Shown one piece after another: positions 2,156-35,104 of a stretch of 38,153 nt of DNA; within the stretch, counting starts at the first letter, position 1; each line of letters starts with the position of its first letter. The translations under genes were made by a program, and so were the position numbers. Below the pieces are notes generated by a model. It was not told the origin of the DNA. It worked only from the letters and a program-made list of their open reading frames with translations, and made no database searches. Source of the DNA: Butyrivibrio sp. (GTDB lineage: Bacteria; Bacillota; Clostridia; Lachnospirales; Lachnospiraceae); assembly GCF_017940685.1 (NCBI RefSeq), contig NZ_JAGAYD010000142.1:1-38153 (forward strand), read 5' to 3'.

Positions 2156-5100
2156 ATGAAAAAAATTTTTGGAGTAATTTCAATCATCGCAGCATTTTCA
2201 CTGATTCTGGGCATTTTATCTTCAGGGTTTACTTCCCATGCAGAAGATAGCTCTTTTATCCATGCAAGGCCCAGCGCCAATGGCCAGCTGTCTGTAAAGG
2301 GCACTCAGCTCGTAGATAAAAACGGCTCTCCCGTTATTCTTAAAGGCATAAGTCTTCACGGCCTCACCTGGTTCCCAGACTTTATATCTAACGACATATT
2401 TAAGCAGGTCTCCACCGAATGGGACTGTAACCTCATAAGACTTCCCATGTATTCTGAGCTTTACTGCAATGGAGAAAAAGATGAAAACGCAGCGCTTCTA
2501 AGACAAGGTGTTGACTATGCCATAAAAAACGATATGTACGTCATGGTTGACTGGCATATCCTTAACGACTATGACCCCAACATCAACATCGATGCGGCCA
2601 TGGACTTCTTTAGCCAGATTTCTTCCGAGTACGCCGGCGTTCCAAATATCATCTACGAGATATGTAATGAGCCCAATAAAGAGTGCTCCTGGAGCGACGT
2701 TTATGAGTATTCAAACAAGGTCATCCCTATTATCAGAGCAAACAGCCCGGATGCTATCATTTTGGTTGGTACCACCACCTATGACAGAGACCTTATCATA
2801 GCCTCCAGAAAACCCCTTGATTTCGACAATGTAATGTACGTTCTTCACTTCTACGCTGCCACTCACCAGGAAGATCTTCAGGGTGAGCTGCTTGAAGCCC
2901 TTGATAAGGGACTTCCTGTATTTATTTCTGAGTGCGGCATCTGTGAAGCCAGTGGAGACGGCGAAATAGACTTTGAGACTGCGGCTAAGTGGTTCGACAT
3001 CCTTCACGAGCATGGTACCAGCTACGCTATCTGGAGTTTGTCCAACAAGGACGAGTCCTCCGCCATGTTAAAGCCCCAATATGACCCTCACGAGCCTATG
3101 ACGGACGCAGATCTTACTCCAAGCGGAACCTGGGTCAAGGCTCTTATTAGTGGTCAGGAACCGGATTTAATCCCTATACCGGAAGCTGCGGCAAAGAAGG
3201 TCGTCCTTCCATCAGCTCTTTTGCAGTCTCTGACCCAGAGAGATGTGACAATAATCAACGCATGGCTAAAAATAGCGCTTGATATTCTAATTCTTGAGGC
3301 TGTAGCTGTGATTTTCGTAGTCACAGTAAGATCTATTTCCAGAAAAAAATACTTGACTTACGACAATCTTGATGCCACAAATCCTACAAGCAATCCGAAG
3401 ATAAAAGAGAAAATCTTCTCTGTATTAAAAAGAATCGTGCTCCTTCTTAGCATATTCTTTACGCTTATGTATCTGTTCTGGCGTATAGCCTACTCAGTCC
3501 CTGTGGAAATGGGACCTGTTGCTGTGGCCTCCAATATTATCCTGCTGGTTGTGGAGGTTTTTGGATTTATCGAGTCCATAATCCTTTATATGAACCTTTT
3601 GGCCTTAAAGGATCATCCTCTGCCAGCTATTTCAGATGATGAATTTCCTGAGGTTGACATCTTTATAGCCACCTATAATGAGCCCGCCGATCTCCTAAGA
3701 AAGACAATAAATGCATGCAACCACCTTAGATATCCTGACAAGTCCAAGGTGCATATATGGCTATGCGACGACAACAGAAGAAGTGAAATGCGCTCCCTTG
3801 CTGATTCCATGGGAATTGGTTATTTCGATCGCCCTGACAACAAAGGTGCCAAGGCAGGTAACCTAAACAATGCCCTCGGAAAGACCAGCTCTCCTTACGT
3901 AGTAACCTTGGACGCTGATATGCTGGTAAAGAGCGATTTCCTTCTTAAGACCATTCCTTACTTCATAGACGCAAAAAAGAAGAGCGAGAGCCTTCCTGCG
4001 GAAAAGAAGATACGTCTTGGACTGTTGCAGACTCCTCAGTGCTTCTATGAACCTGATATTTTCCAATATGCTCTTTATTCTGAAAAGAGCGCTCCAAATG
4101 AGCAGGATTTCTTTTACAGGACCATTGAAGTTGCAAAAACTTCCACAAACAGCGTAATTTATGGCGGTTCAAACACCGTCATTGCAAGAGAAGCACTTGA
4201 AGCAGTTGGGGGCTTCTATACAGAATCCATCACAGAAGATTTTGCCACTGGATTACTTATTGAGTCCCATGGCTTTGTCAGCCTTGCCCTTCCTGAGCCC
4301 CTGGCCAGCGGAAAAACCCCTGATACCTTCAAAGAGCATATCAAGCAGAGGATCCGCTGGGGCCGCGGCGTTATCAGCACAGCACGCCAGCTCCACCTGT
4401 TCAGACGAAAGGGACTTTCTCTTTCCCAGCGCCTTAGCTACTGGAGCTCCATGGTTTACTGGTATTCGCCTGTAAAGAACCTGATCTATATCATTTCGCC
4501 GCTGATCTTTGCTGTGTTTGCCATCCCTGTGTTCAAGTGCTCCTGGCTCGATCTTCTGATCTTCTGGGTTCCAATGTTTATCATGCAGGATCTGTGCCTG
4601 AGGGCCAACAGTGATAACGCCGTATCCCTTAAGTGGAGCGGAATCTACGAGACCAGTGTAATGCCGCACCTTCTTGTGCCCATAATCAAGGAGTTCTTTG
4701 GCATCACTACCAAGAAGTTTGCTGTTACTGATAAGTCTGCAAGAAAGGTAAAAAGAGGCTCAGATCTTAAGTCCATGATGCCATACCTTGTGCTTATCGC
4801 TCTTTCTATAGTCGGAATCATAAGGTGCATCGTCATTGCAAAGGGACTTCAGTCACTTTCACTTATCATCCTGATATTCTGGCTTATCAGAAACTCTTAC
4901 TACCTTGCCATGTCCATGTTCCTTGAGGATGGCAGGGACAGCGAGGCTGATATAGTCCACGTAATAGACGCTGAGCCTGTCCTTATGACCAAGAAATCCG
5001 ACGGCCAGAGGTTTGAAGGCATCACAACCTTCCTTACTGAGCACAGTCTTAAGATCTTCCTGGACGAAACAGGAGACCTGGTCATTGGCGACATGGTGGA

Positions 5101-5341
5101 TGTAGCAGTAGATGCCCTCACAGCATCAGCAGATCTTGGCTGCGTAGTTACTGGAATCACGCCTTCAAGGTCCGGCGTATCTGCAGTTTATTCACTTGAA
5201 ATACTGGATTTAAAAGGAACTGGCGATGAATATCAGCAGATATTATTTGACAGAGTGCCCACTCTCCCTCAGTCCCTGAACAGAGACTACGGTATAATCA
5301 CTCACCTTCTAAGAAATATTGCCCACCGCATACTGCGGTGA
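2156..5341 (+). CDS. GH5 cellulase fused to BcsA-like cellulose synthase (GT2)
   Basis: A 1061-aa fusion. Residues 1-29 are a signal peptide or anchor. Residues about 40-330 form a GH5 domain with the expected active-site set: R95, H134, N171-E172 (acid/base, in CNEP), H231/Y233, E259 (nucleophile, ISECG) and W293. Hydrophobic segments follow near 369-391, 425-446 and 456-480. A family 2 glycosyltransferase begins at VDIFIATYNEP (500) with D538-D539, DAD 586-588, TED 693-695 and QRIRW 731-735, the processive BcsA motif set. More membrane segments lie at about 774-815 and 873-920. The tail (about 940-1020) sits where BcsA has PilZ, but no RxxxR is visible, so c-di-GMP binding is doubtful. Likely role: membrane synthesis of a beta-1,4-glucan, with the GH5 part extracytoplasmic and trimming it. 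No BcsB-like gene is nearby. It could make another beta-glucan. Confidence 0.9.
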   Translation: MKKIFGVISIIAAFSLILGILSSGFTSHAEDSSFIHARPSANGQLSVKGTQLVDKNGSPVILKGISLHGLTWFPDFISNDIFKQVSTEWDCNLIRLPMYSELYCNGEKDENAALLRQGVDYAIKNDMYVMVDWHILNDYDPNINIDAAMDFFSQISSEYAGVPNIIYEICNEPNKECSWSDVYEYSNKVIPIIRANSPDAIILVGTTTYDRDLIIASRKPLDFDNVMYVLHFYAATHQEDLQGELLEALDKGLPVFISECGICEASGDGEIDFETAAKWFDILHEHGTSYAIWSLSNKDESSAMLKPQYDPHEPMTDADLTPSGTWVKALISGQEPDLIPIPEAAAKKVVLPSALLQSLTQRDVTIINAWLKIALDILILEAVAVIFVVTVRSISRKKYLTYDNLDATNPTSNPKIKEKIFSVLKRIVLLLSIFFTLMYLFWRIAYSVPVEMGPVAVASNIILLVVEVFGFIESIILYMNLLALKDHPLPAISDDEFPEVDIFIATYNEPADLLRKTINACNHLRYPDKSKVHIWLCDDNRRSEMRSLADSMGIGYFDRPDNKGAKAGNLNNALGKTSSPYVVTLDADMLVKSDFLLKTIPYFIDAKKKSESLPAEKKIRLGLLQTPQCFYEPDIFQYALYSEKSAPNEQDFFYRTIEVAKTSTNSVIYGGSNTVIAREALEAVGGFYTESITEDFATGLLIESHGFVSLALPEPLASGKTPDTFKEHIKQRIRWGRGVISTARQLHLFRRKGLSLSQRLSYWSSMVYWYSPVKNLIYIISPLIFAVFAIPVFKCSWLDLLIFWVPMFIMQDLCLRANSDNAVSLKWSGIYETSVMPHLLVPIIKEFFGITTKKFAVTDKSARKVKRGSDLKSMMPYLVLIALSIVGIIRCIVIAKGLQSLSLIILIFWLIRNSYYLAMSMFLEDGRDSEADIVHVIDAEPVLMTKKSDGQRFEGITTFLTEHSLKIFLDETGDLVIGDMVDVAVDALTASADLGCVVTGITPSRSGVSAVYSLEILDLKGTGDEYQQILFDRVPTLPQSLNRDYGIITHLLRNIAHRILR

Positions 5342-5367: not shown

Positions 5368-7101
5368 TTATACTTTTCCAAGCTGCATCCGGTAATACTT
5401 CTCGTACAGACCGCCCTTTTGGATAAGTTCTTTGTGTTTACCACGTTCTTTTATACCGTCTTCATCAAGAACAATGATCTCATCTGCCCCAAGGATAGTT
5501 GAAAGCCTGTGGGCGATGGTGATCGTTGTTCTTCCTTTTGCCAGCTTATCAAGACTTTCCTGAATATATCTCTCACTCTCGTTATCAAGAGCACTTGTAG
5601 CCTCATCAAGGATCAGGATCGGAGGATTCTTAAGGAATACCCTTGCTATGGCAATTCGCTGTTTCTGGCCTCCAGAAAGCCTTGCTCCCCTCTCTCCTAC
5701 CTCTGTATCAAAACCATTTGGCAAAGTCTCAATAAAGCCTAAAAGATCGGCATTTTTGGCAGCCTCAACAATCTCTTCCATGGTGGCGTCAGGTTTACCG
5801 TAGGCGATATTCTCTTTTACCGTGCCATTAAACAGATATACGTCCTGCTGTACAATTCCAATAAAGGATCTAAGGGACTTCTGAGTCACATCCCTTATGT
5901 CAGTTCCGTCTATAAGGACCGCTCCGCCGCTAACATCGTAAAACCTTGGAAGGAGCGAGCAAAGGGTGGTCTTTCCGCCGCCAGAAGGCCCTACAATTGC
6001 TATTGCCTTGCCAGCCTCCACATGGAGGTTGATATCCTTAAGGACCGCTTCTTCGTCTCCATATGCGAAAGATACGTTCCTGTAGTCGATAACACCCTTT
6101 ACGTCTTTTAGCTCTTTTGCATCCGGTCTGTCCACTATCTCGGGCATTGTATCCATGACATCTGAAAATCTTTCAAAGCCCGCCATGCCCTTCTGCAGCT
6201 GCTCGGTGAACTCCACCAGCACGTTTACGGGGTTAATGAAAATATTGATGTAGAGGGCATAGATCGCGATATCTTCGCCGGTCAGCTGTCCCTGCGCGAT
6301 GAACACGCCGCCAGCTACCAGCACTGCCACAAACATAAGTCCCTCAAAGAGGTTATTTCCTGAATGGAAAAGAGCCATCTGCCTGTAATTGGCCTGTTTT
6401 GAATCAAGGAACGCAAGATTTGACTTATCAAACTTGCCCTGCTCGATGTCTTCGCCAGTAAAGGACTTTACAACCCTGATACCGCCAAGGGTATCCTGCA
6501 GTGATGAATTGATGCCTGCGATCTTTTTCCGGTTGTCAGAAAAGGTCCTTCTCATCTTCTTGTTCTGGCTGACAGAAAATGCAGCCATGCAGACAACAAC
6601 AGCAAGAAGGCACAAGGTCATGGGAACATTGATCCTCATAAGAAGGATGAAGGATCCGATGATCTTAACCACTGAGATAAAGATATTCTCAGGACCGTGG
6701 TGAGCCAGCTCTGATACGTCAAAAAGGTCTGAAACCAGCTTGGACATCATCTCTCCTGTGTTGTGTGTGTCATAGTAGGAGAAAGAAAAGGCCTCAAACC
6801 TGTCAAACAGCTCCCTTCTCATGGTGGATTCCATCCTGGCGCCCATCATGTGGCCCTGGTAAGTTACGTAATACTTACAAAGGCTTCTGACCGCATACAT
6901 CGCGATCAGAAGCACTGCAATAAGTCCTATTCTCTTTAAGATCACCTCTGGGGCCTCTAAATACAGCGTAGCCCGGAGGATCCTCATAAATTGTGGGAAT
7001 GCCAGATCGATTGCCGACATGATCGAAGCACATAAAAGATCCAGCAAAAAGATGCCTATATAAGGCTTATAGTAGGGTATAAATTTCTTGATAAGCTTCA
7101 T
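5368..7101 (-). CDS. ABC exporter, fused permease and ATPase
   Basis: A 577-aa half-transporter. Residues 1-300 hold about six membrane segments of a type-1 exporter; residues 335-577 are the nucleotide-binding domain, with Walker A GPSGGGKTT (371-379), signature LSGGQ (475-479), Walker B and D-loop LILDEATSALD (496-506), and switch His531. All catalytic elements are intact, so it should work as a homodimer or with a partner encoded elsewhere. No C39 peptidase domain is present, so it is not a processing bacteriocin exporter. Its ATG overlaps the stop of the upstream gene by four bases (ATGA), implying translational coupling. The substrate is unknown; MsbA/LmrA-like multidrug or lipid export are the usual options. 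Confidence 0.92.
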   Translation of the reverse strand: MKLIKKFIPYYKPYIGIFLLDLLCASIMSAIDLAFPQFMRILRATLYLEAPEVILKRIGLIAVLLIAMYAVRSLCKYYVTYQGHMMGARMESTMRRELFDRFEAFSFSYYDTHNTGEMMSKLVSDLFDVSELAHHGPENIFISVVKIIGSFILLMRINVPMTLCLLAVVVCMAAFSVSQNKKMRRTFSDNRKKIAGINSSLQDTLGGIRVVKSFTGEDIEQGKFDKSNLAFLDSKQANYRQMALFHSGNNLFEGLMFVAVLVAGGVFIAQGQLTGEDIAIYALYINIFINPVNVLVEFTEQLQKGMAGFERFSDVMDTMPEIVDRPDAKELKDVKGVIDYRNVSFAYGDEEAVLKDINLHVEAGKAIAIVGPSGGGKTTLCSLLPRFYDVSGGAVLIDGTDIRDVTQKSLRSFIGIVQQDVYLFNGTVKENIAYGKPDATMEEIVEAAKNADLLGFIETLPNGFDTEVGERGARLSGGQKQRIAIARVFLKNPPILILDEATSALDNESERYIQESLDKLAKGRTTITIAHRLSTILGADEIIVLDEDGIKERGKHKELIQKGGLYEKYYRMQLGKV

Positions 7102-7751
7102 TTAACCTTGTTTCCGCCCCATTCAACCACGGTAAAGCCGTTTCTTTCCGGGGTCTCAATAATCTGAGGACAAATCTTTACGTAAACATCTGAAGGATAC
7201 CAAGCCATGAACACTCTGATCAGGGTATCAGGCTCTGGTGTAACGGAAAGTTTCGCCCCATTACGATAAGTTCTATCCTGGAAGCTTATCATGTTATATG
7301 GGTTTCTTTCAAGGTCTGGAAGCCAAAACTTCAAAAATTCTTCCATCTCTGCATCGTTGAGACCAAGCTTTGGAAGCATATCTCTTAGGAAAGTCTCAGT
7401 TTCTGAGCCTTTTACACAGTATCCTGTGTAGAAATCATACTCAAAGTGAGGAACACCTTCCCAGAAGAGGTAGTCATACTGCTGTCCCTCAAAAGTAATG
7501 GTGCCATCCTTTGTTGCTGTCACATTCCAGGTGTTATCTGCATTAAATTCAGGGATCAGTTCTGTGATATCTCCATCATAATCGAGGCTGACCGAGATCT
7601 CCTGGCCATCCTCCTGTGGATATAAGTATATAACTGGCTTAAGGTCTTCATTTTCACTTAAAATGCACTTGTCAGCCGCGTATCCGCCCCATCCTGCTAT
7701 TAATAAAAGAGTAGTCGCTAAGATCATTCCAACAATACTATTTCTTTTCAT
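7098..7751 (-). CDS. Exported or membrane-anchored protein with KPVIYLYP motif
   Basis: A 217-aa protein started at ATG 7751, which has a strong AGGAGGT eight bases upstream; an ATG 33 bases earlier is not used by this site. Residues 4-26 are hydrophobic (SIVGMILATTLLLIAGWGGY), a signal peptide or single anchor. The mature part opens with KPVIYLYP and contains YDYLFWEG and a closing VEWGG, features I associate with an uncharacterised conserved Firmicutes family. Coupling to the ABC exporter through a four-base overlap suggests an extracytoplasmic accessory, but function is unknown. Confidence 0.75.
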   Translation of the reverse strand: MKRNSIVGMILATTLLLIAGWGGYAADKCILSENEDLKPVIYLYPQEDGQEISVSLDYDGDITELIPEFNADNTWNVTATKDGTITFEGQQYDYLFWEGVPHFEYDFYTGYCVKGSETETFLRDMLPKLGLNDAEMEEFLKFWLPDLERNPYNMISFQDRTYRNGAKLSVTPEPDTLIRVFMAWYPSDVYVKICPQIIETPERNGFTVVEWGGNKVK

Positions 7752-7913
7752 TAGCTCATACCTCCTTTGCTTATCTATACTCATTATAATTCATATTTCG
7801 GCTATTGTTCGAAATATTGTGAGAAAATTCCATAAATTTTTCGACATTTTTTAATCTTAATATTCTTTTTATAAATTCTTAAGGTGATGGTAAGTAAATC
7901 TACACATTTATAG

Positions 7914-10714: not shown

Positions 10715-12118
10715 TCAGGTGTTGTTGGCGTGGCGCCTCTCGTGTCTTTTGTAATATCTGGCTTTGTCTTTATACATCTCCTCATCGGCATTTTTGATGG
10801 CCTTATTGATGTCTGCAGAGACCTCGATCCACTCCCATCCTACTGCAATAGCAACGCCCCTTGCTTTGAGCTTGAATTTCTCAACCATTTCCACAAACTT
10901 CTCTTGTGATACTTCCGGAACAAGAGCTATAAATTCATCGCCACCAAATCTGTAGCAGAATTTCTTTTTGAAGATGGAACCAAACAGATAAGCAGTATCT
11001 CTGATCATCTGGTCTCCTGCTTCATGGCCCTTTTCGTCATTTATGGCTTTAAGCCCATTTATATCTGTGTAGCACACTCCCACAGGTACTGACATCTCTT
11101 TGAGCAGCGCAAGTTCCTGGTTAAGGGCATATCTATTGCCAAGTCCTGTCAGGCCATCATGCCCTCCCATGAACATAAGCTCCTGAGTAAGCTCATGATT
11201 CTTGATCTGCGTCGAAAGAAAGATGCTTACTGTCTCCATAACCTCTGAGATGTTAAGCCTTAGCTCATTTGAGTAATTATCCGCAACAAGGAATCCTATC
11301 CTTTCATCCTTGTCTCTAAGAACAGATACAGCATATCTTGAGCATTTTCCGGCCAGATACTCATTGTACATCTCAGGCTGTACATCTGCGATCGTAGATG
11401 TATCGTTCATGGCAAAAAAGTTCTTTCCTCTCAGCTGCCTGTTCCAGCTGCTGATAATGTCGTATTTTTCGAATATTTTCTTAGGAGGAAGATCTGCAGA
11501 ACTACTCTTACTTATCCATTCATATCTGTCGATTAGCTTATTTCCATCATTTCTTACCACGTATACCCTGTCAGCCTCAAGAGTCTGACCGATCAGCCTA
11601 AGCACCCTTTTGATTCCCTTGGCAAAATCCGAGGTAGAACCAGCCTTAGCGCACTCAATAACCAGTTTATTGGTATTGGATTGCAGATCTCTGGTATCCT
11701 CATCTCTTTTTGCTGCTGTCACATCGTGGATGATATATGCGCAGAACCCCTTCTGAAACACAGGAACTGCCCAGAACTCCAGCCATAGATCGTGCTGAGA
11801 GTTATAAGACCTGTTTATGGAAGACTGTCTTAAGATTGCAGCCTGATAGCTGAATTTGATCCAGTCCTCATCCTGATTGTTAACTGTGGTATAAAAAGTA
11901 GAGCCGATCAGCTCAGCTGTAGAAAATCCCGTCAACTGCGCATACTTTTCATTAGCGAACAGGAAAAGCATGTCCTTTACAGTTCCAAAGGGATCAGTTA
12001 AAACCTTAAAAATGCAACATGCATCAGGAAGTTCTTTTAGCATTGATAAAATATCGCTGCTAGAAAGCTCTGTATCAAATGAATATCCTATCTTCCCTTC
12101 TGTTTCTTTATCAGGCAT
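10715..12118 (-). CDS. PAS-GAF-GGDEF diguanylate cyclase
   Basis: A 467-aa protein started at ATG 12118 with AAGGAG six bases upstream. Residues about 25-135 form a PAS domain (FANEKYAQLTGFSTAELIG), 150-305 are GAF-like, and 315-460 are GGDEF, opening HDGLTGLGNRYAL with an intact GGDEF motif at 392-396 and NADEEMYKDKARYY at the end. It should make c-di-GMP from two GTP. No RxxD inhibitory site is visible just before GGDEF, so product inhibition is unlikely at that site. No membrane segment is seen, so it is a cytosolic sensor. It is divergent from the solute-binding lipoprotein gene at 12266, sharing a 147-bp promoter region. Confidence 0.92.
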   Translation of the reverse strand: MPDKETEGKIGYSFDTELSSSDILSMLKELPDACCIFKVLTDPFGTVKDMLFLFANEKYAQLTGFSTAELIGSTFYTTVNNQDEDWIKFSYQAAILRQSSINRSYNSQHDLWLEFWAVPVFQKGFCAYIIHDVTAAKRDEDTRDLQSNTNKLVIECAKAGSTSDFAKGIKRVLRLIGQTLEADRVYVVRNDGNKLIDRYEWISKSSSADLPPKKIFEKYDIISSWNRQLRGKNFFAMNDTSTIADVQPEMYNEYLAGKCSRYAVSVLRDKDERIGFLVADNYSNELRLNISEVMETVSIFLSTQIKNHELTQELMFMGGHDGLTGLGNRYALNQELALLKEMSVPVGVCYTDINGLKAINDEKGHEAGDQMIRDTAYLFGSIFKKKFCYRFGGDEFIALVPEVSQEKFVEMVEKFKLKARGVAIAVGWEWIEVSADINKAIKNADEEMYKDKARYYKRHERRHANNT

Positions 12119-12265
12119 AGCAGTCTCCTTGACAAGCTGTTGGTGGTTACATATTTCCAAAATAATTATACAATACAACTCGCTTTATTTCACCATAATT
12201 TATTATTTTTTCATTTATTAACACTCGCAATATGATAAAATTATTTCATCTCGGAGGAAAACTTA

Positions 12266-16927: not shown

Positions 16928-18100
16928 TCAGTTATCTAGAAGTTGTTTCTCAAGTTCCTCGAAGTTATAGTCTCCGCGCTGCTCAAAGTCGTTAAAAGTA
17001 TTCTTTTTAGCCCTGAACTTGGTGGTCTTGTTGTTATAATATTCGTTCTTGATACAATCCTTCATGAAGGCAATTGGCACATCTATAGGCTTGGTGTAAC
17101 TGTTCATGTACTCATAAGACTTTTTGATCTTGTCAAAATCATATTCTGCAAGCTCTGCCAGCTCCCTGATCTCTCTTAACTTGAAATCATCGTGCATAAG
17201 ATCGATAAGATCGTCTAATATCTCATCCTTGTTAATTGGAGCCTCTGTACTTGCTTTTGCTACCTCTGCATCCTTCTTGGTAACAAAGAATCTGATACCC
17301 TCAGTTTTACGACCGTTTTTGATAGGTTCGTAGTCAACCTGGATGCTGGTCTTCTGATTCAGCTCCTCTTTTGCCTTGGAAAGTACGTTCCTGTTAAAGA
17401 TCTTGTACTCTTTATACTTGGTCTGGCCGGTCTTCTCAGCAAGTTCATCGATCCTGTCATAATCAGGATACTCTTTTTCAAGCTCAGCCTTGATCTCCTT
17501 GCTTCCTCCGGAATTGATAATGCCAAGCTCAAGCTTAAGTTCTGTAAGCTTGTATTCAAGCACCATCTCACCCTGCATCTTGCTAATGGCTCTCTGGTAG
17601 TCATAAGCAGACTTGAGCATCTCATATAATCTGAGGGAATATACACTCTTAAGGCTTAAGGTATCAGCAAGGCTCAGAACTGTGTAATCCTTCTGAAGAT
17701 TGACTATCTTATCAGTAAGAGAGTTATTATAACGAAGAGTCAGAGTACCATTTTTAAACGAGGCATCAGTAACCACCTGATGTGCCTCGATCTTACCATT
17801 TTCCTTGTCCTTCATAAGAAGGTTCCAGTCAAATATTGTTGATCCCTTGATCTGTCTGTCGCATAGCGCCTCAATATGCTCATAAAGAGATCCAGAACTC
17901 GATTTAAACATCTTACGAAGTTCTGTACCATATATAGTAGCAACTACGTTATTGGTCTCATCAACCTTAATATTCTGCATTCCAATGGCGAAAAGCTTCT
18001 GGCTAAGAGCTGTACCCTTTCCCATTGCATTGATAAGCTCATTGGATTTCTTGTAAGTCTTCTTACTTACAATAAGCTGGTCTCTCTTTTCGTTTTGCAT
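16928..18100 (-). CDS. repB: Plasmid-type replication initiator, Rep_3 family
   Basis: A 390-aa initiator with two winged-helix domains in Rep_3 style. The first runs to about residue 230, with LSLADTLSLKSVYSLRLYEML, the region typical of Rep_3 proteins around their first recognition module; the second follows, with FNRNVLSKAKEELNQKT and IQVDYEPIKNGRKTEGIRFFV. Such proteins bind iterons and start replication with host helicase. Start ATG 18100 is chosen because AAAAAAGGA precedes it. That ribosome site lies inside an iteron-like copy (18108-18126), so Rep probably represses its own expression. Iterons extend away upstream. The symbol follows usage for similar replicons; the exact Rep subgroup is not certain. 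Confidence 0.88.
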   Translation of the reverse strand: MQNEKRDQLIVSKKTYKKSNELINAMGKGTALSQKLFAIGMQNIKVDETNNVVATIYGTELRKMFKSSSGSLYEHIEALCDRQIKGSTIFDWNLLMKDKENGKIEAHQVVTDASFKNGTLTLRYNNSLTDKIVNLQKDYTVLSLADTLSLKSVYSLRLYEMLKSAYDYQRAISKMQGEMVLEYKLTELKLELGIINSGGSKEIKAELEKEYPDYDRIDELAEKTGQTKYKEYKIFNRNVLSKAKEELNQKTSIQVDYEPIKNGRKTEGIRFFVTKKDAEVAKASTEAPINKDEILDDLIDLMHDDFKLREIRELAELAEYDFDKIKKSYEYMNSYTKPIDVPIAFMKDCIKNEYYNNKTTKFRAKKNTFNDFEQRGDYNFEELEKQLLDN

Positions 18101-18107
18101 AGATAGG

Positions 18108-19075
18108 ATTCCTTTTTTGTACACCTATTGATATAATCAAGGTGTTCCTTTTTTATTCACCTTTAAAGTCTAAAGAATAAATAACATTCCCTTTTTATAA
18201 ACCTTAATTCTATTATATTCCCTTTTTTGTCACTTTCAAGCTGTTTTTTACAATATTTTGTGTGCAAATAGGCTTAAAACCACAATATTCTATTAACCCT
18301 TTTAGTCAATCTATTTTGTTCCCTTTTTATGCACCTTTGATAATATGTGCGCCCCTTATCGTCACTTTTGACCATTTTATATTAATCTAATCAGTCAAAT
18401 TTATTCCCTTTTAGGTCACCTTTACAGACTCACTTGCGCGCTTTTTGGTCCCCAAGACGAATAATTTGTATCTAAATCTTTATATTTACCTGATTTTAGA
18501 ACTTAAATTTTAGATCCAGACTATCTTTACCTTCTCAAAAATGGCTCTTTTAACGAAATATACCAGGAAATATATAGCATTCCCTTTTTAGTCACCTTTA
18601 ATTCCCTTTTAAGTACCCACAACTCTTCTTTTCTTGAAATATGCGGGTTTTGAAGGGCTTTAAGAATGAAATGAAATCCATGATCTTAACGCAGCATAGG
18701 CATTTATAGATATATTTATAGATATAGTTCTAAATATCCACTCAGAATTCATTACTGGCAAAACAATGGATTTATCGGAAAATCTTAATAAAATGGCATT
18801 CCCTTTTTGGTCACCTTAACATTCCTTTTTTGGTCACCTTTGCTCTTCTGTATGTTCTCAACCCCTGTATTTGTGCGGCTTTTAGACATATATGTCTTTT
18901 ATCGCCAGTTGTTCCCTTTTTGGTCACCTTTTAGTCCTTTTTAGGTAACTTATCATTCCATTAAGTATCACCTGTACACTACATCATCCATACCCTATTT
19001 GTTCACCTGAAAATCCCTATCATGTCACATTCTGTTCCCTTTAGCTTCACTATTCATCCCCTTTTTGTACACTTT
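18108..19075. repeat. Iteron array, likely replication origin (about 19 direct repeats)
   Basis: A degenerate direct repeat, consensus ATTCCCTTTTTGGTCACCTT, all in one orientation. Copies begin at about 18108, 18144, 18186, 18217, 18294, 18318, 18351, 18403, 18579, 18601, 18798, 18821, 18911, 18933, 18955, 18991, 19012, 19034 and 19056. The best copies are at 18579, 18798, 18821 and 18911. Many neighbours start 21-23 bases apart, two helical turns, above all from 18911 to 19056. The array adjoins the initiator gene and borders a long AT-rich stretch, the usual layout of an iteron origin. Variants such as TTATTCACC and TTATGCACC also come close to DnaA boxes, but no perfect box is seen. Confidence 0.9.
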
Positions 19076-21009: not shown

Positions 21010-21131
21010 TATATGATGTGTATAATTCATAGAAAATATATTTCTTATATTTTTCATATTATATATTGAAAATAAATATCCTGAGACTTATAATTATTTT
21101 TGGAGAAAATGAAATAGTAAGGGGAAGAAGT

Positions 21132-21959
21132 ATGCGTATTGTTGCTTTTAGTAATCAAAAAGGGGGAGTAGCTAAGACTACTTCAAGTTATGCTATGGCT
21201 GTTGGCCTTGCTAAGAGAGATTTTAAGGTCCTTGTGATCGATGCAGATCCACAGGAAAATCTCTCAATGACCGCTGGAATCGATTTAAATGAGATAGATC
21301 CTGATCCAGAGGATATTGAGAAGCTTACAGCTGAACAGCAGGAATATTTCTATAAAAATGTACCAGCCAAGCTTTTTGAGGTCATGAAGGGGGAAAAGGA
21401 CATAAATAAGGCCATAATTCCTATTGCAGAGAATTTAGACCTTATTGTAGGTGGAATTGATCTTGCATCCGCTGATATGACCTTTGGAGCTCTTGGAAGA
21501 GAGAGACTTATCAAGGAAGCCTTCAGTAAGCTCAAGAACAAGTACGATTTCTGCATATTTGACTGTAGCCCGGCTCTTGGCGTTGTTCTTATGAATATAC
21601 TTACAGTCGCTGATGAGGTGATTATTCCTCTTGAGCCTGGTGCATATTCTCTTCAGGGATTATCAAGACTGTATAAATTCATCGATCAAATCCATGATTT
21701 CACCAATGACAAGCTTAAAGTAGATGGAATCCTTGTAACTAAGGTCAGAAACACAGCAAATTCCAAGATTTGGATCAATGATATAGAGGAAAAAGCTGAG
21801 CTTTTAGGTACAAAGGTATTTAAGTCCAAGATCAGACTTAATGTATCAGTAGAAGAGGCTCAGACAATGAAGATGGATATTTTTGAGTATGCTGGGGGAT
21901 CAGCTGCTGCAAGAGATTATGATGACTTTATTGATGAATTTCTGGAGGAGGATGAGTGA
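21132..21959 (+). CDS. parA: ParA-type partition ATPase
   Basis: A 275-aa ParA/Soj-like ATPase. The start is ATG 21132, preceded by AAGGGGAAGAAG; the 22-codon upstream extension is AT-rich and rejected. The deviant Walker A is KGGVAKTT (10-17, signature Lys10), followed by DADPQENLS and FDCSPALGVV. There is no N-terminal helix-turn-helix domain, so it is a short ParA of the type Ib kind, in which the small partner, not ParA, represses the operon. It binds DNA non-specifically and moves replicons by ATP hydrolysis stimulated by its partner. The stop overlaps the partner's ATG (TGATG), giving coupling. Confidence 0.93.
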   Translation: MRIVAFSNQKGGVAKTTSSYAMAVGLAKRDFKVLVIDADPQENLSMTAGIDLNEIDPDPEDIEKLTAEQQEYFYKNVPAKLFEVMKGEKDINKAIIPIAENLDLIVGGIDLASADMTFGALGRERLIKEAFSKLKNKYDFCIFDCSPALGVVLMNILTVADEVIIPLEPGAYSLQGLSRLYKFIDQIHDFTNDKLKVDGILVTKVRNTANSKIWINDIEEKAELLGTKVFKSKIRLNVSVEEAQTMKMDIFEYAGGSAAARDYDDFIDEFLEEDE

Positions 21960-33400: not shown

Positions 33401-35104
33401 ATGGCATTTAGTCAGCGGCTTATTGAGAACATTAAGACTCTTTTGCATTCAGCTGCAATGGAGAATCTGAATCACGATCTGTATAGAGCGATCTGTGAGG
33501 AGCTTCACGTTGTAAAAATGTATTACGAGATGGACCTGGGTGACGAAGACAGATATCGTAACCACAGGACTGGTGAGCTTGTGATCGCTGCAAAAGAGGT
33601 AGATAAGCAGCTTGTTTTATTTGATTCTGGAAAAAAGAGTGGATTTTCCAGGCAATACAGGTATTATTACGAAGGCTACGAGTATGTTCACGCTTATATA
33701 GAGTTCGAAGAGGGAGTCAAAGAGGAAGAACTTGATGATTCTGTCTACGATCTTTGTGCTGACCTGGTCTACATTCTTGCAAGCAGAGAGAATCTGCGAA
33801 GGATGCTGGACTTTGCAGAAACGTCTGACGTTCTTACAGGTATTCCAAACCTTGCATACTGCCAAAAAAAATATGACAAGATGCTTCAAAATGCTGATCC
33901 CCATGATTTTCTGCTTCTTAGGATAAATCTGCGCAATTTTAAATATATAAATGAGGTTGCAGGAGCTGGAGCCGGGGACGAGGCCATTATCCAGTATTCA
34001 CGCAAGCTCTTCAGGACTATTGAGGACGATGAGGGATTGTGCCGTCTTGGCGGAGACAATTTCGTTGCATTTATCCATAAGGAAAACTCAAAAAAATTCC
34101 TTAAAAAAGTGTCTTCTATCACGATCAACAAGTTAAAGGCTGCTCCAAACAACCAGTTTGAGATAGGTGCCTGGGTTGGAATTTCAAGCCTTGCTGACGA
34201 TGAGGAGAAGAACTTCTTAGAAAGGCTTAACGATGCCAATGTTGCCTGCGGAATAGGTAAGAGCAGGCTTAAGCAGGATGTTGTTTTTTACGGTGATAAC
34301 TTAAAAGAGATGGTCATGCAGGGAAGGGATATCATTGCAGCCTTTCCAGCTGCAGTTAAAGGCCATGAATTCAAGCCATTTTTCCAGCCAAAGGTTGATA
34401 TGAGAACTGGTGAGCTTGTAGGATTTGAGGCGCTGTGCCGATGGCTTCACGATGGTCATTTTATCCTTCCGGATCAGTTTGTGCCTATTCTGGACAGGGA
34501 AGGACTTATCCCGGATCTTGATCTTACGATCTTTAACGAGACCTGTAGGGCCATAAGAAGTTGGAAGGATATGGGACTTAATCCCCCAAGGATATCCAGT
34601 AACTTCTCAAGGAAAAATCTCTTTGTTCCAAGGTTTGAAAACAAGATCTTAAGGGTCCTTGAAGATAATGGCCTTGAAGCAGAAGATGTTGAAATTGAGA
34701 TAACAGAGAGTACCAAGGATATTGAGTATGACAGGCTTATTGATTTTGTAAAGAATCTCAAGGAAAAGGGACTGTTCATCTCCATCGACGATTTTGGAAC
34801 TGGTTATTCTTCACTGTCTCTTTTGCATAATATCGAGGCTGATATTATCAAGATCGACAAGTCCTTTACGGACATGGTCACAGAAGACAGAAAGTCTGCA
34901 GTCCTCATTGAAAGCGTAATAACTATCGCCAGGAAATTGGACATGCAGACTATAGCTGAAGGTGTTGAAACTAAAGAACAGGGCAAAATGCTCATGGAAA
35001 TGGGCTGCAATTTTGCCCAGGGCTTTTATTACTCAAAGCCTGTAGACTATCAGGATGCTACAGAGCTTATCAAAAAGAATCCGTTTAAACCAATTACTGA
35101 TTGA
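33401..35104 (+). CDS. c-di-GMP phosphodiesterase, degenerate GGDEF plus EAL
   Basis: A 567-aa protein. Residues 1-135 are an unrecognised, mostly helical sensory region; 140-300 hold a GGDEF domain whose motif reads GGDNF (217-221), so cyclase activity is unlikely although GTP binding is possible; 320-560 hold an EAL domain with full catalytic set: E343 in FEALCRW, N401, E433/E436 in EITES, D463-D464 (IDDFGTG), K484, E520/E523 (AEGVET) and Q540. It should hydrolyse c-di-GMP. AGGAG precedes ATG 33401. No membrane segment is seen. It may oppose the cyclase at 10715 and influence the cellulose synthase at 2156. Confidence 0.92.
   Translation: MAFSQRLIENIKTLLHSAAMENLNHDLYRAICEELHVVKMYYEMDLGDEDRYRNHRTGELVIAAKEVDKQLVLFDSGKKSGFSRQYRYYYEGYEYVHAYIEFEEGVKEEELDDSVYDLCADLVYILASRENLRRMLDFAETSDVLTGIPNLAYCQKKYDKMLQNADPHDFLLLRINLRNFKYINEVAGAGAGDEAIIQYSRKLFRTIEDDEGLCRLGGDNFVAFIHKENSKKFLKKVSSITINKLKAAPNNQFEIGAWVGISSLADDEEKNFLERLNDANVACGIGKSRLKQDVVFYGDNLKEMVMQGRDIIAAFPAAVKGHEFKPFFQPKVDMRTGELVGFEALCRWLHDGHFILPDQFVPILDREGLIPDLDLTIFNETCRAIRSWKDMGLNPPRISSNFSRKNLFVPRFENKILRVLEDNGLEAEDVEIEITESTKDIEYDRLIDFVKNLKEKGLFISIDDFGTGYSSLSLLHNIEADIIKIDKSFTDMVTEDRKSAVLIESVITIARKLDMQTIAEGVETKEQGKMLMEMGCNFAQGFYYSKPVDYQDATELIKKNPFKPITD

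Follow-up and report, generated by a model that had tools for sequence, protein, structure and literature searches.

Cellulose synthases served by separate cellulases are already known, as are a maker-plus-cutter arrangement proposed for GH17-GT2 proteins of pseudomonads and a tunicate synthase fused to a GH6 domain. In the Gram-negative system, the BcsA synthase, with its channel and PilZ fold, requires for secretion an extracytoplasmic cellulase, BcsZ, which is a separate GH8 protein; in E. coli, the hydrolytic activity and not the protein itself is reported to be needed, and other cellulases can substitute (PMC11379886). In Acidisarcina a GH5_1 gene is described as having displaced the GH8 bcsZ gene in the bcs locus (PMC9693552), and the Rhizobium cellulase CelC2 is reported to modulate fibril length (PMC3520766). 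In the clostridial CcsZABHI system, the CcsA-type family 2 glycosyltransferase (GT2) has a GH5 beta-1,4-glucanase as its cognate hydrolase, and CcsZ of C. difficile is described as the GH5 endo-beta-1,4-glucanase of the ccs locus (PMC7710045). Here we analysed 38,153 nucleotides of Butyrivibrio sp. (assembly GCF_017940685.1, contig NZ_JAGAYD010000142.1; this whole stretch is called the window), in which one open reading frame, at positions 2156 to 5341 of the forward strand, encodes a cellulase half and a cellulose-synthase-like half as a single protein of 1061 residues followed by a stop codon. A preliminary description of this DNA had proposed the fusion and had given, as background, that CcsA and CcsZ are separate in clostridia; the first is borne out by the single frame and its recurrence in relatives, the second by the C. 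difficile work (PMC7710045).

From the N to the C terminus, the protein consists of a signal-like segment, a GH5 subfamily 2 (GH5_2) domain, membrane helices, a BcsA-like GT2 domain and a PilZ-fold domain, all coordinates given for it being on the forward strand. The cellulase domain (residues 37-335, positions 2264-3160) matches Pfam PF00150 at 186 bits, against a gathering score of 23.5, and by Pfam is GH5, not GH17. Its closest solved matches, by sequence and fold, are Cel5-type enzymes; two of the matched entries are titled 'family GH 5-2 enzyme', and we take the other Cel5-type matches to belong to the same subfamily. To follow conservation we used an alignment of 76 sequences, made of the window copy and 75 complete open reading frames from 80 related loci, and omitting L033, L102, L087 and L100, which run into contig ends, and the interrupted L079 (L and G numbers are our labels for loci and genomes). 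E172, in an NEP motif (positions 2669-2671), and E259 (positions 2930-2932), presumably the acid/base and the nucleophile of this domain, GH5 enzymes being retaining, are invariant in 76/76 sequences. The set R95, H134, N171, E172, H231, Y233, E259 and W293 is kept in all 74 complete GH5_2 fusions, and in 10 of 11 further rows (ten from the Fibrobacter phylum, one of which is the gene of L101 again, plus L107), the eleventh ending at its contig before six of the eight positions. The intact GH5 active site noted in the preliminary description thus stands.

The GT2 catalytic domain (residues 498-738, positions 3647-4369) carries DD, DAD, TED and QRIRW, and is followed by C-terminal membrane helices with the gating loop FAVTDK (residues 756-924, positions 4421-4927). 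The letters checked in the D, DxD, TED and QxxRW motifs, and the gating loop FxVTxK, are kept in 76/76 sequences, in agreement with the full processive motif set claimed earlier. Compared with L025 and L023, respectively, ratios of non-synonymous to synonymous substitution rates (dN/dS) were 0.14 and 0.07 for the GH5 part, 0.035 and 0.034 for the glycosyltransferase part and 0.086 and 0.12 for the PilZ-like part; these ratios are rough, as the synonymous rate (dS) varies from part to part of the gene in the comparison with L025 and exceeds 1 in that with L023, and several values are saturated against L024. Both halves look to be under purifying selection and look working. Against L025, dS was 0.02 in residues 361-490 and 0.63 in the PilZ-like part, an unevenness that may reflect recombination between close relatives.

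Hydrophobic stretches are found at residues 1-28, 364-396, 419-446, 447-484, 772-810 and 871-912. The first lies in an N-terminal signal sequence or transmembrane helix (residues 1-29, positions 2156-2242) with an MKK tip, a hydrophobic core and SHA before E30; the predicted local distance difference (pLDDT) score is low at residues 23-31, and a hydrophobic segment occurs within the first 40 residues in 71/76 sequences. A linker (residues 336-360, positions 3161-3235), with pLDDT below 50 at residues 346-348, connects the GH5 domain to a membrane helix (residues 361-398, positions 3236-3349) that is predicted to run from outside to inside: it is followed by positive charges, the mean fraction of lysine plus arginine being 0.14 before and 0.26 after it (higher after in 71/76 sequences). 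Two more membrane helices, recognised by structure prediction and hydrophobicity, precede the glycosyltransferase domain (residues 416-482, positions 3401-3601). The structural alignment with BcsA starts at residue 364, inside the membrane part of BcsA and past the signal-like segment and the GH5 domain. Because of this starting point, the signal-like N terminus and the charge bias around the helix, the GH5 domain is predicted to lie outside and the GT2 domain inside. The preliminary description had placed the hydrolase at the channel exit, as a trimmer or editor of the nascent glucan, and had named a cytoplasmic GH5 domain as what would speak against this. Topology and BcsA comparison both answer, as predictions, against a cytoplasmic GH5 domain, so the outward placement holds up; the exact position over the channel, which is left unfixed by the full model (predicted template modelling score, pTM, 0.67), and the proposed trimming or editing do not follow from it.

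The C-terminal domain and tail (residues 925-1061, positions 4928-5338) adopt a BcsA-like PilZ fold according to fold comparison; with E-values up to 0.1 allowed, the Pfam PilZ model matches 3 of the 12 members scanned, and the window copy is not one of them. The PilZ ligand motifs RxxxR and [D/N]xSxxG are absent from the window copy and occur together in 0/89 fusion rows, compared with 14/18 unfused rows. The 89 rows represent 84 distinct genes, five being sequence-confirmed repeats (L104 of L023, L105 of L040, L106 of L032, L150 of L064 and L157 of L101), and the count leaves aside L165 and also L160, the latter for its length; the four motif-less unfused rows are L142, L143, L111 and L154. 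In place of the ligand motifs, the fusions have GRD...G[I/V]TTxLTEH...LD. On this pattern the fusion is probably outside the control of cyclic di-GMP (c-di-GMP), its PilZ fold being kept as a structural or differently controlled module.

We favour, at somewhat better than even confidence, a reading in which the protein is a stand-alone beta-1,4-glucan synthase, probably c-di-GMP-independent, with a tethered cellulase that cuts the nascent chain outside the membrane. The C-terminal two thirds would polymerise UDP-glucose in the cytoplasm, and the chain would be threaded through the synthase's own membrane channel, as in BcsA or CcsA. The N-terminal GH5_2 domain, exported and kept by its tether close to the outer opening of its own synthase, would cut the nascent chain, and thereby set chain length and release or un-jam the synthase. 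The GH5_2 half would thus be a fused equivalent of CcsZ or BcsZ, c-di-GMP gating would have been lost, and the PilZ fold would have stayed. The UDP-glucose donor, the cellulose product, the cutting of the nascent chain, the release or anti-stalling role and the independence from c-di-GMP are all what we infer from sequence.

A retaining GH5 domain might instead join the cut chain to an acceptor or close it, which we hold to be quite unlikely. The layout of the fusion lends something to this idea: the Orphan/NdvB proteins of pseudomonads are described as single polypeptides with a signal peptide, an exported TIM-barrel hydrolase, a membrane region and a cytoplasmic BcsA-like GT2 domain, in which RxxxR and DxSxxG are listed as absent and the exported domain is modelled to cut the nascent glucan, with both cleavage and cyclisation proposed (PMC10237404). 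In addition, one GH5_2 enzyme has been reported to transglycosylate (PMC3526467). The Orphan/NdvB proteins, which we set beside the fusion by their description, differ from it in their GH17 domain, in their proposed beta-1,3-glucan product and in their hosts, pseudomonads and other genera (PMC10237404). For the fusion itself no acceptor is known, and its sequence offers no separation of transglycosylation from plain hydrolysis. Beta-1,4 chains are also stiffer than beta-1,3 chains and less apt to cyclise. A hydrolytic cutter remains our preferred reading, and here the other known systems provide further comparisons. The tunicate CesA-GH6 protein likewise holds a cellulose synthase and a cellulase-like domain in one polypeptide, but it is an animal protein in which the GH6 domain is C-terminal and lacks a probable catalytic aspartate (PMC7464555), whereas the fusion has an N-terminal GH5 domain with the checked residues kept. 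From CcsZABHI it differs by being fused, by its hydrolase subfamily (GH5_2, against GH5_25 for C. difficile CcsZ, PMC7710045) and by the absence of the PilZ motifs. From BcsA and BcsZ it differs in the hydrolase family and in its scanned neighbours in the window, among which there is no BcsB or BcsC.

The preliminary description had suggested searching genomes for GH5-GT2 fusions. Among an initial 61 relatives, the full-length fusion was found in six genomes (that of the window and others at 95, 70, 68, 57 and 57% identity), and in a seventh, G029, in two pieces on two contigs. A scan of genomes with the synthase half then gave 363 relatives, of which the best 80 were kept; GH5_2 is in the same frame in 75 of these best 80 loci, a proportion that is therefore not a prevalence and that includes eleven strain records. 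The remaining five are L083 and L089, which carry another GH5 domain, L079, which has one stop, and L033 and L102, which are cut at contig starts. As the window's genome is in 281 contigs, an assembly or annotation artefact, a chimera or a chance joining might be thought of, but with the same frame recurring in 75 of 80 loci, strain records among them, its probability is negligible and we reject it. In even draws of genomes, the full-length fusion was present in 5/392 genomes of the window's order and in 1/398 of its phylum (the window's own), and, with the fused centre counted, in 2/295 in the order of G815 and 1/197 in that of G817. The hosts, named as in the genome records, include Butyrivibrio, Pseudobutyrivibrio, Oribacterium, other Lachnospiraceae, Oscillospiraceae/Ruminococcaceae and Erysipelotrichaceae (Bacillota), Actinomycetota, and Fibrobacter. 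In the Actinomycetota metagenome-assembled genomes (MAGs) L049 and L085, the reading frames have 65.2 and 55.2% GC and their flanks 64.6 and 55.3%. L101 is a Fibrobacter MAG, and 21/150 genomes of its phylum, which we name after this host, match: among ten loci examined, GH5_2 is in frame in nine and the tenth starts inside the gene at a contig end, while the other 11 genomes are represented by frame lengths alone (926 to 1127 residues). Contamination as the source of L101, whose gene is that of L157, was rejected on these counts.

The Fibrobacter matches bear on another explanation, that the cellulase cuts nearly every chain and that short cellodextrins are exported as a reserve, a signal or shared food. 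Fibrobacter reportedly makes cellodextrins and loses them (PMC4432691, which cites Wells 1995, Matulova 2001 and Nouaille 2005); cutter and maker are present one to one in each complete copy; and the window's scanned neighbours include no matrix-assembly or acetylation genes, the CotH-type protein discussed below being full length in 0/10 fusion genomes. We consider this explanation unlikely: the synthesis reported in Fibrobacter is intracellular with efflux (PMC4432691), the strains of those studies are not linked here to the fusion gene, and GH5_2 enzymes serve plain degradation too. A search of the Fibrobacter S85 genome paper (PMC3079729) for six terms gave no match, and one of the S85 envelope proteome paper (PMC6851124) gave none for GT2 or 'cellulose synth'. 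In a bolder and rather unlikely extension, the fusions would be single-gene glucan exporters, spread horizontally among rumen and gut bacteria of three phyla, the cellulose-degrading Fibrobacter included, that make short beta-1,4-glucan with maker and cutter locked one to one and respond to a signal other than c-di-GMP; the cellodextrins released by rumen fibre degraders would then be partly a dedicated product.

We built a synthase tree of 94 rows (74 GH5_2 fusions including the window copy, 2 rows with a swapped hydrolase, 1 split and 17 unfused), rooted with L119 and L120, and a midpoint-rooted cellulase tree, both as quick searches under one substitution model. In the synthase tree, all fusions are recovered together with both swaps and the split row as a single clade (support 100), a result that depends on the root and the rows sampled and carries a long-branch warning, L101 against the unfused rows included. 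The sister of this clade is the unfused synthase of other Butyrivibrio (L010, L012, L013 and L110; support of the join, 96), followed by L145 and L147; the nearest unfused synthase, from the window's own genus, keeps the PilZ motifs. In the cellulase tree, 75 fused or split GH5_2 rows lie on one side of a branch and 13 free GH5_2 rows on the other (support 99.9). Since a single branch sets the fused rows apart in each of the two trees, the simplest reading is a single origin of the fusion, probably from a ccsA-like synthase. Among the rows of the synthase tree, which include no named CcsA, the closest to the fusions is an unfused synthase from a ccs-like locus; this nearest unfused kin stands with MBOAT, DHHW, CotH, DUF4956 and VTC genes, and the loci of L145, L146 and L147 have VTC, DUF4956, CotH or similar, MBOAT and DHHW genes (recognised by Pfam for L146 and by eye for L145 and L147).

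Several unfused synthases have a cellulase gene beside them. A GH5 gene lies directly 3' of the synthase in L147 (GH5_4-type) and L145 (similar through L083), and a GH5_2 gene lies 3' of it in L144; in L142 (4437-7021) and L143 (3353-5943), which form a long separate branch in the synthase tree, the end of a GH5_2 gene meets the start of a GT2 gene without PilZ motif. In the same-genus locus L146, no GH5 gene was seen in the 18 kb listed. Within the fusion clade, a GH5_4-type cellulase replaces GH5_2 in L083 (8852-12100) and L089 (2435-5824, typed by its similarity to L083), the synthase half being kept. The L083 hydrolase is 37% identical to that of L147 and 35% to that of L145, and its solved relatives include 6xsu ('GH5-4'), 2jep/2jeq and 1edg, the last three entries being assigned to GH5_4 (PMC3526467, PMC7710045). 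It would appear that the synthases among which the fusion arose had their cellulases encoded separately, and that one lineage later exchanged the cellulase type, a direction suggested by the nesting of the swaps in the fusion clade. As GH5_4 replaces GH5_2 while the synthase half is kept, selection seems to be for a working beta-glucanase and not for one particular type. This bears on whether the two halves need to be related in function at all: the cellulase might simply be a surface-anchored plant-fibre enzyme sharing a membrane anchor with the synthase, as many hosts are rumen or gut bacteria and GH5-only matches are common in the same order. We judge this very unlikely, because in several related loci an unfused synthase has a separate cellulase gene next to it, the swap keeps the arrangement, and no binding module or dockerin was matched by Pfam within the 1061 residues.

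The swapped hydrolase also touches on the nature of the glucan. Its two best solved relatives are named beta-1,3-1,4-glucanase and another is named xyloglucanase, which would suit a fusion that makes some other beta-glucan, for example (1,3;1,4)-beta-glucan, edited by the GH5 domain. To our knowledge, no motif decides glucan linkage. RiGT2 (Cgs) of Romboutsia resembles the fusion in being a BcsA-like synthase that comes from a Gram-positive bacterium and has no BcsB partner, and is reported to make mixed-linkage glucan; it differs in being a hydrolase-free protein of 637 residues with RxxxR and NxSxxG kept and with QRDRW (PMC10374906). In the synthase tree the fusions group with unfused synthases bearing QRIRW or QRNRW and lie apart from L119 and L120, whose motif is QRDRW, a distance that counts for little, as these two rows served as the outgroup and RiGT2 was not in the tree. 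We hold another beta-glucan to be an unlikely product, and beta-1,4-glucan the preferred one.

No neighbour family is common to more than 18/80 loci, the largest being ABC ATPases, and the window's scanned neighbours comprise MnmL, a HAD phosphatase, an ABC transporter and others, with no CcsB, MBOAT, DHHW, CotH, DUF4956 or VTC genes among them, a result that for MBOAT and DHHW covers these neighbours and not the whole genome. A full-length copy of the CotH-type protein known from the ccs-like locus occurs in 5/5 unfused genomes and in 0/10 fusion genomes. Together, the want of a widely common neighbour family and of a full-length CotH-type protein suggests that the fusion synthase works stand-alone.

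Several observations weigh against the tethered, c-di-GMP-independent cellulose synthase that we propose. The function of every family member is read from sequence and prediction. Scores against the models for UDP-forming cellulose synthases are below both cut-offs (344.5 bits against 699.1 for TIGR03030, about half, and 281.2 against 992 for NF008558), so that we do not count the protein as a member of either model. The product of a BcsA-like GT2 protein is not readable from the domain: such domains are stated, for the proteins of that study, not to be separable by product (PMC10237404), and RiGT2 makes a mixed-linkage glucan (PMC10374906). The loss of the PilZ motifs is not peculiar to the GH5-GT2 family, as pseudomonad Orphans also lack both (PMC10237404), and in RiGT2, which has both, c-di-GMP binding was not detected, although its PilZ domain is needed (PMC10374906). 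The GH5 position over the channel is unfixed at the pTM given above. The membrane stretch of residues 361-490 has a dN/dS of 0.76 against L025, from just 2 synonymous and 5 other changes. In L079 (359-3541), an in-frame stop lies between cellulase and synthase, so that tethering may not always be needed; this locus may hold two separate proteins, or an error in the MAG. Finally, weaker partial CotH-like matches occur in 6/10 fusion genomes (the best, 34% identity over 125-455, in G022). The rival explanations weighed above overlap with one another, and our degrees of belief in them are not shares of one whole.

No description of a bacterial GH5-GT2 fusion was found in full-text literature searches; subscription journals and CAZy lie outside that coverage, and database entries may exist. 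These searches gave no account of a GH5-GT2 fusion with both sites intact, of its occurrence in three phyla, of the exchange of cellulase type or of its descent next to a synthase that bears PilZ motifs; the idea of a maker-plus-cutter fusion is not wholly new. To the preliminary description the analysis adds a PilZ fold that lacks the ligand motifs, a family that is widespread and probably arose once, an exchange of the hydrolase, and the published parallel of the GH17-GT2 proteins. A built-in maker and cutter could help to explain why cellulose makers so often have a cutter: here the two are held at a fixed stoichiometry, both sites are kept in all complete aligned copies, and the cellulase type has changed once. 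Most fusion hosts belong to groups that we take to be monoderm, and a role in clearing the periplasm or in crossing an outer membrane would therefore not apply to them; the role of the cutter could thus be addressed in one protein. As a compact glucan exporter encoded by one gene, the fusion invites comparison with the GH17-GT2 proteins; its PilZ fold is under selection despite having no ligand motifs, and the protein may be where some of the beta-glucan exported by major rumen bacteria comes from.

Signalling genes are found near the synthases. In the window, GGDEF and GGDEF-EAL proteins are encoded at 10715-12178 (reverse strand) and 33401-35104 (forward strand), on the same stretch as the motif-less synthase. 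A PAS plus class III cyclase protein occurs in 7/80 loci (plus a short remnant in L056), a cyclic-nucleotide-binding protein in 6/80 and a full-length protein joining STAS to an APH-type kinase in 6/80, all counts being minima, as flanks are short in many loci, with Pfam run on one representative each. The cyclase, the cyclic-nucleotide-binding protein or both are seen in L032 (14040-15446 and 12283-13242), L028, L030, L050, L076, L094, L102 and L037, and these genes are a possible replacement for c-di-GMP control. The STAS-APH protein is seen in L060 (12141-13361), L053, L061, L062, L064 and L080, directly 3' of the fusion in 4/6. Homology between the C-terminal domain of the class III cyclase and the PilZ-like region of the synthase was rejected (hhalign probability 1.9).

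Rep3-type initiator and ParA-like genes at 16928-18124 (reverse strand) and 21066-21959 (forward strand) give the window's contig the look of a plasmid or chromid fragment. In a plasmid collection, 519 records have a match, none covering 80% of the query at one place. In G000, G022, G360 and G002 the fusion shares its contig with a Rep3 gene about 12 kb away; in G020 and G005 Rep3 is encoded on contigs other than that of the fusion, and G009, G378, G222 and G415 yielded no Rep3 gene. A promoter and terminator scan gave scores no better than shuffles, and two PHROGs matches are of unknown function. At 7098-7784 (reverse strand), by an MsbA-like ABC transporter gene, the window has an open reading frame of 228 residues that matches neither Pfam nor NCBIfam models at E 0.001. 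A short decayed GH5_2 fragment resembling that of the fusion is present in L019/L148 (10201-10662, G004). In L026, a gene that by eye is transposase-like lies upstream of the fusion, and beyond this gene the sequence coding for the N-terminal part of the fusion is present a second time, an arrangement hinting at an insertion.

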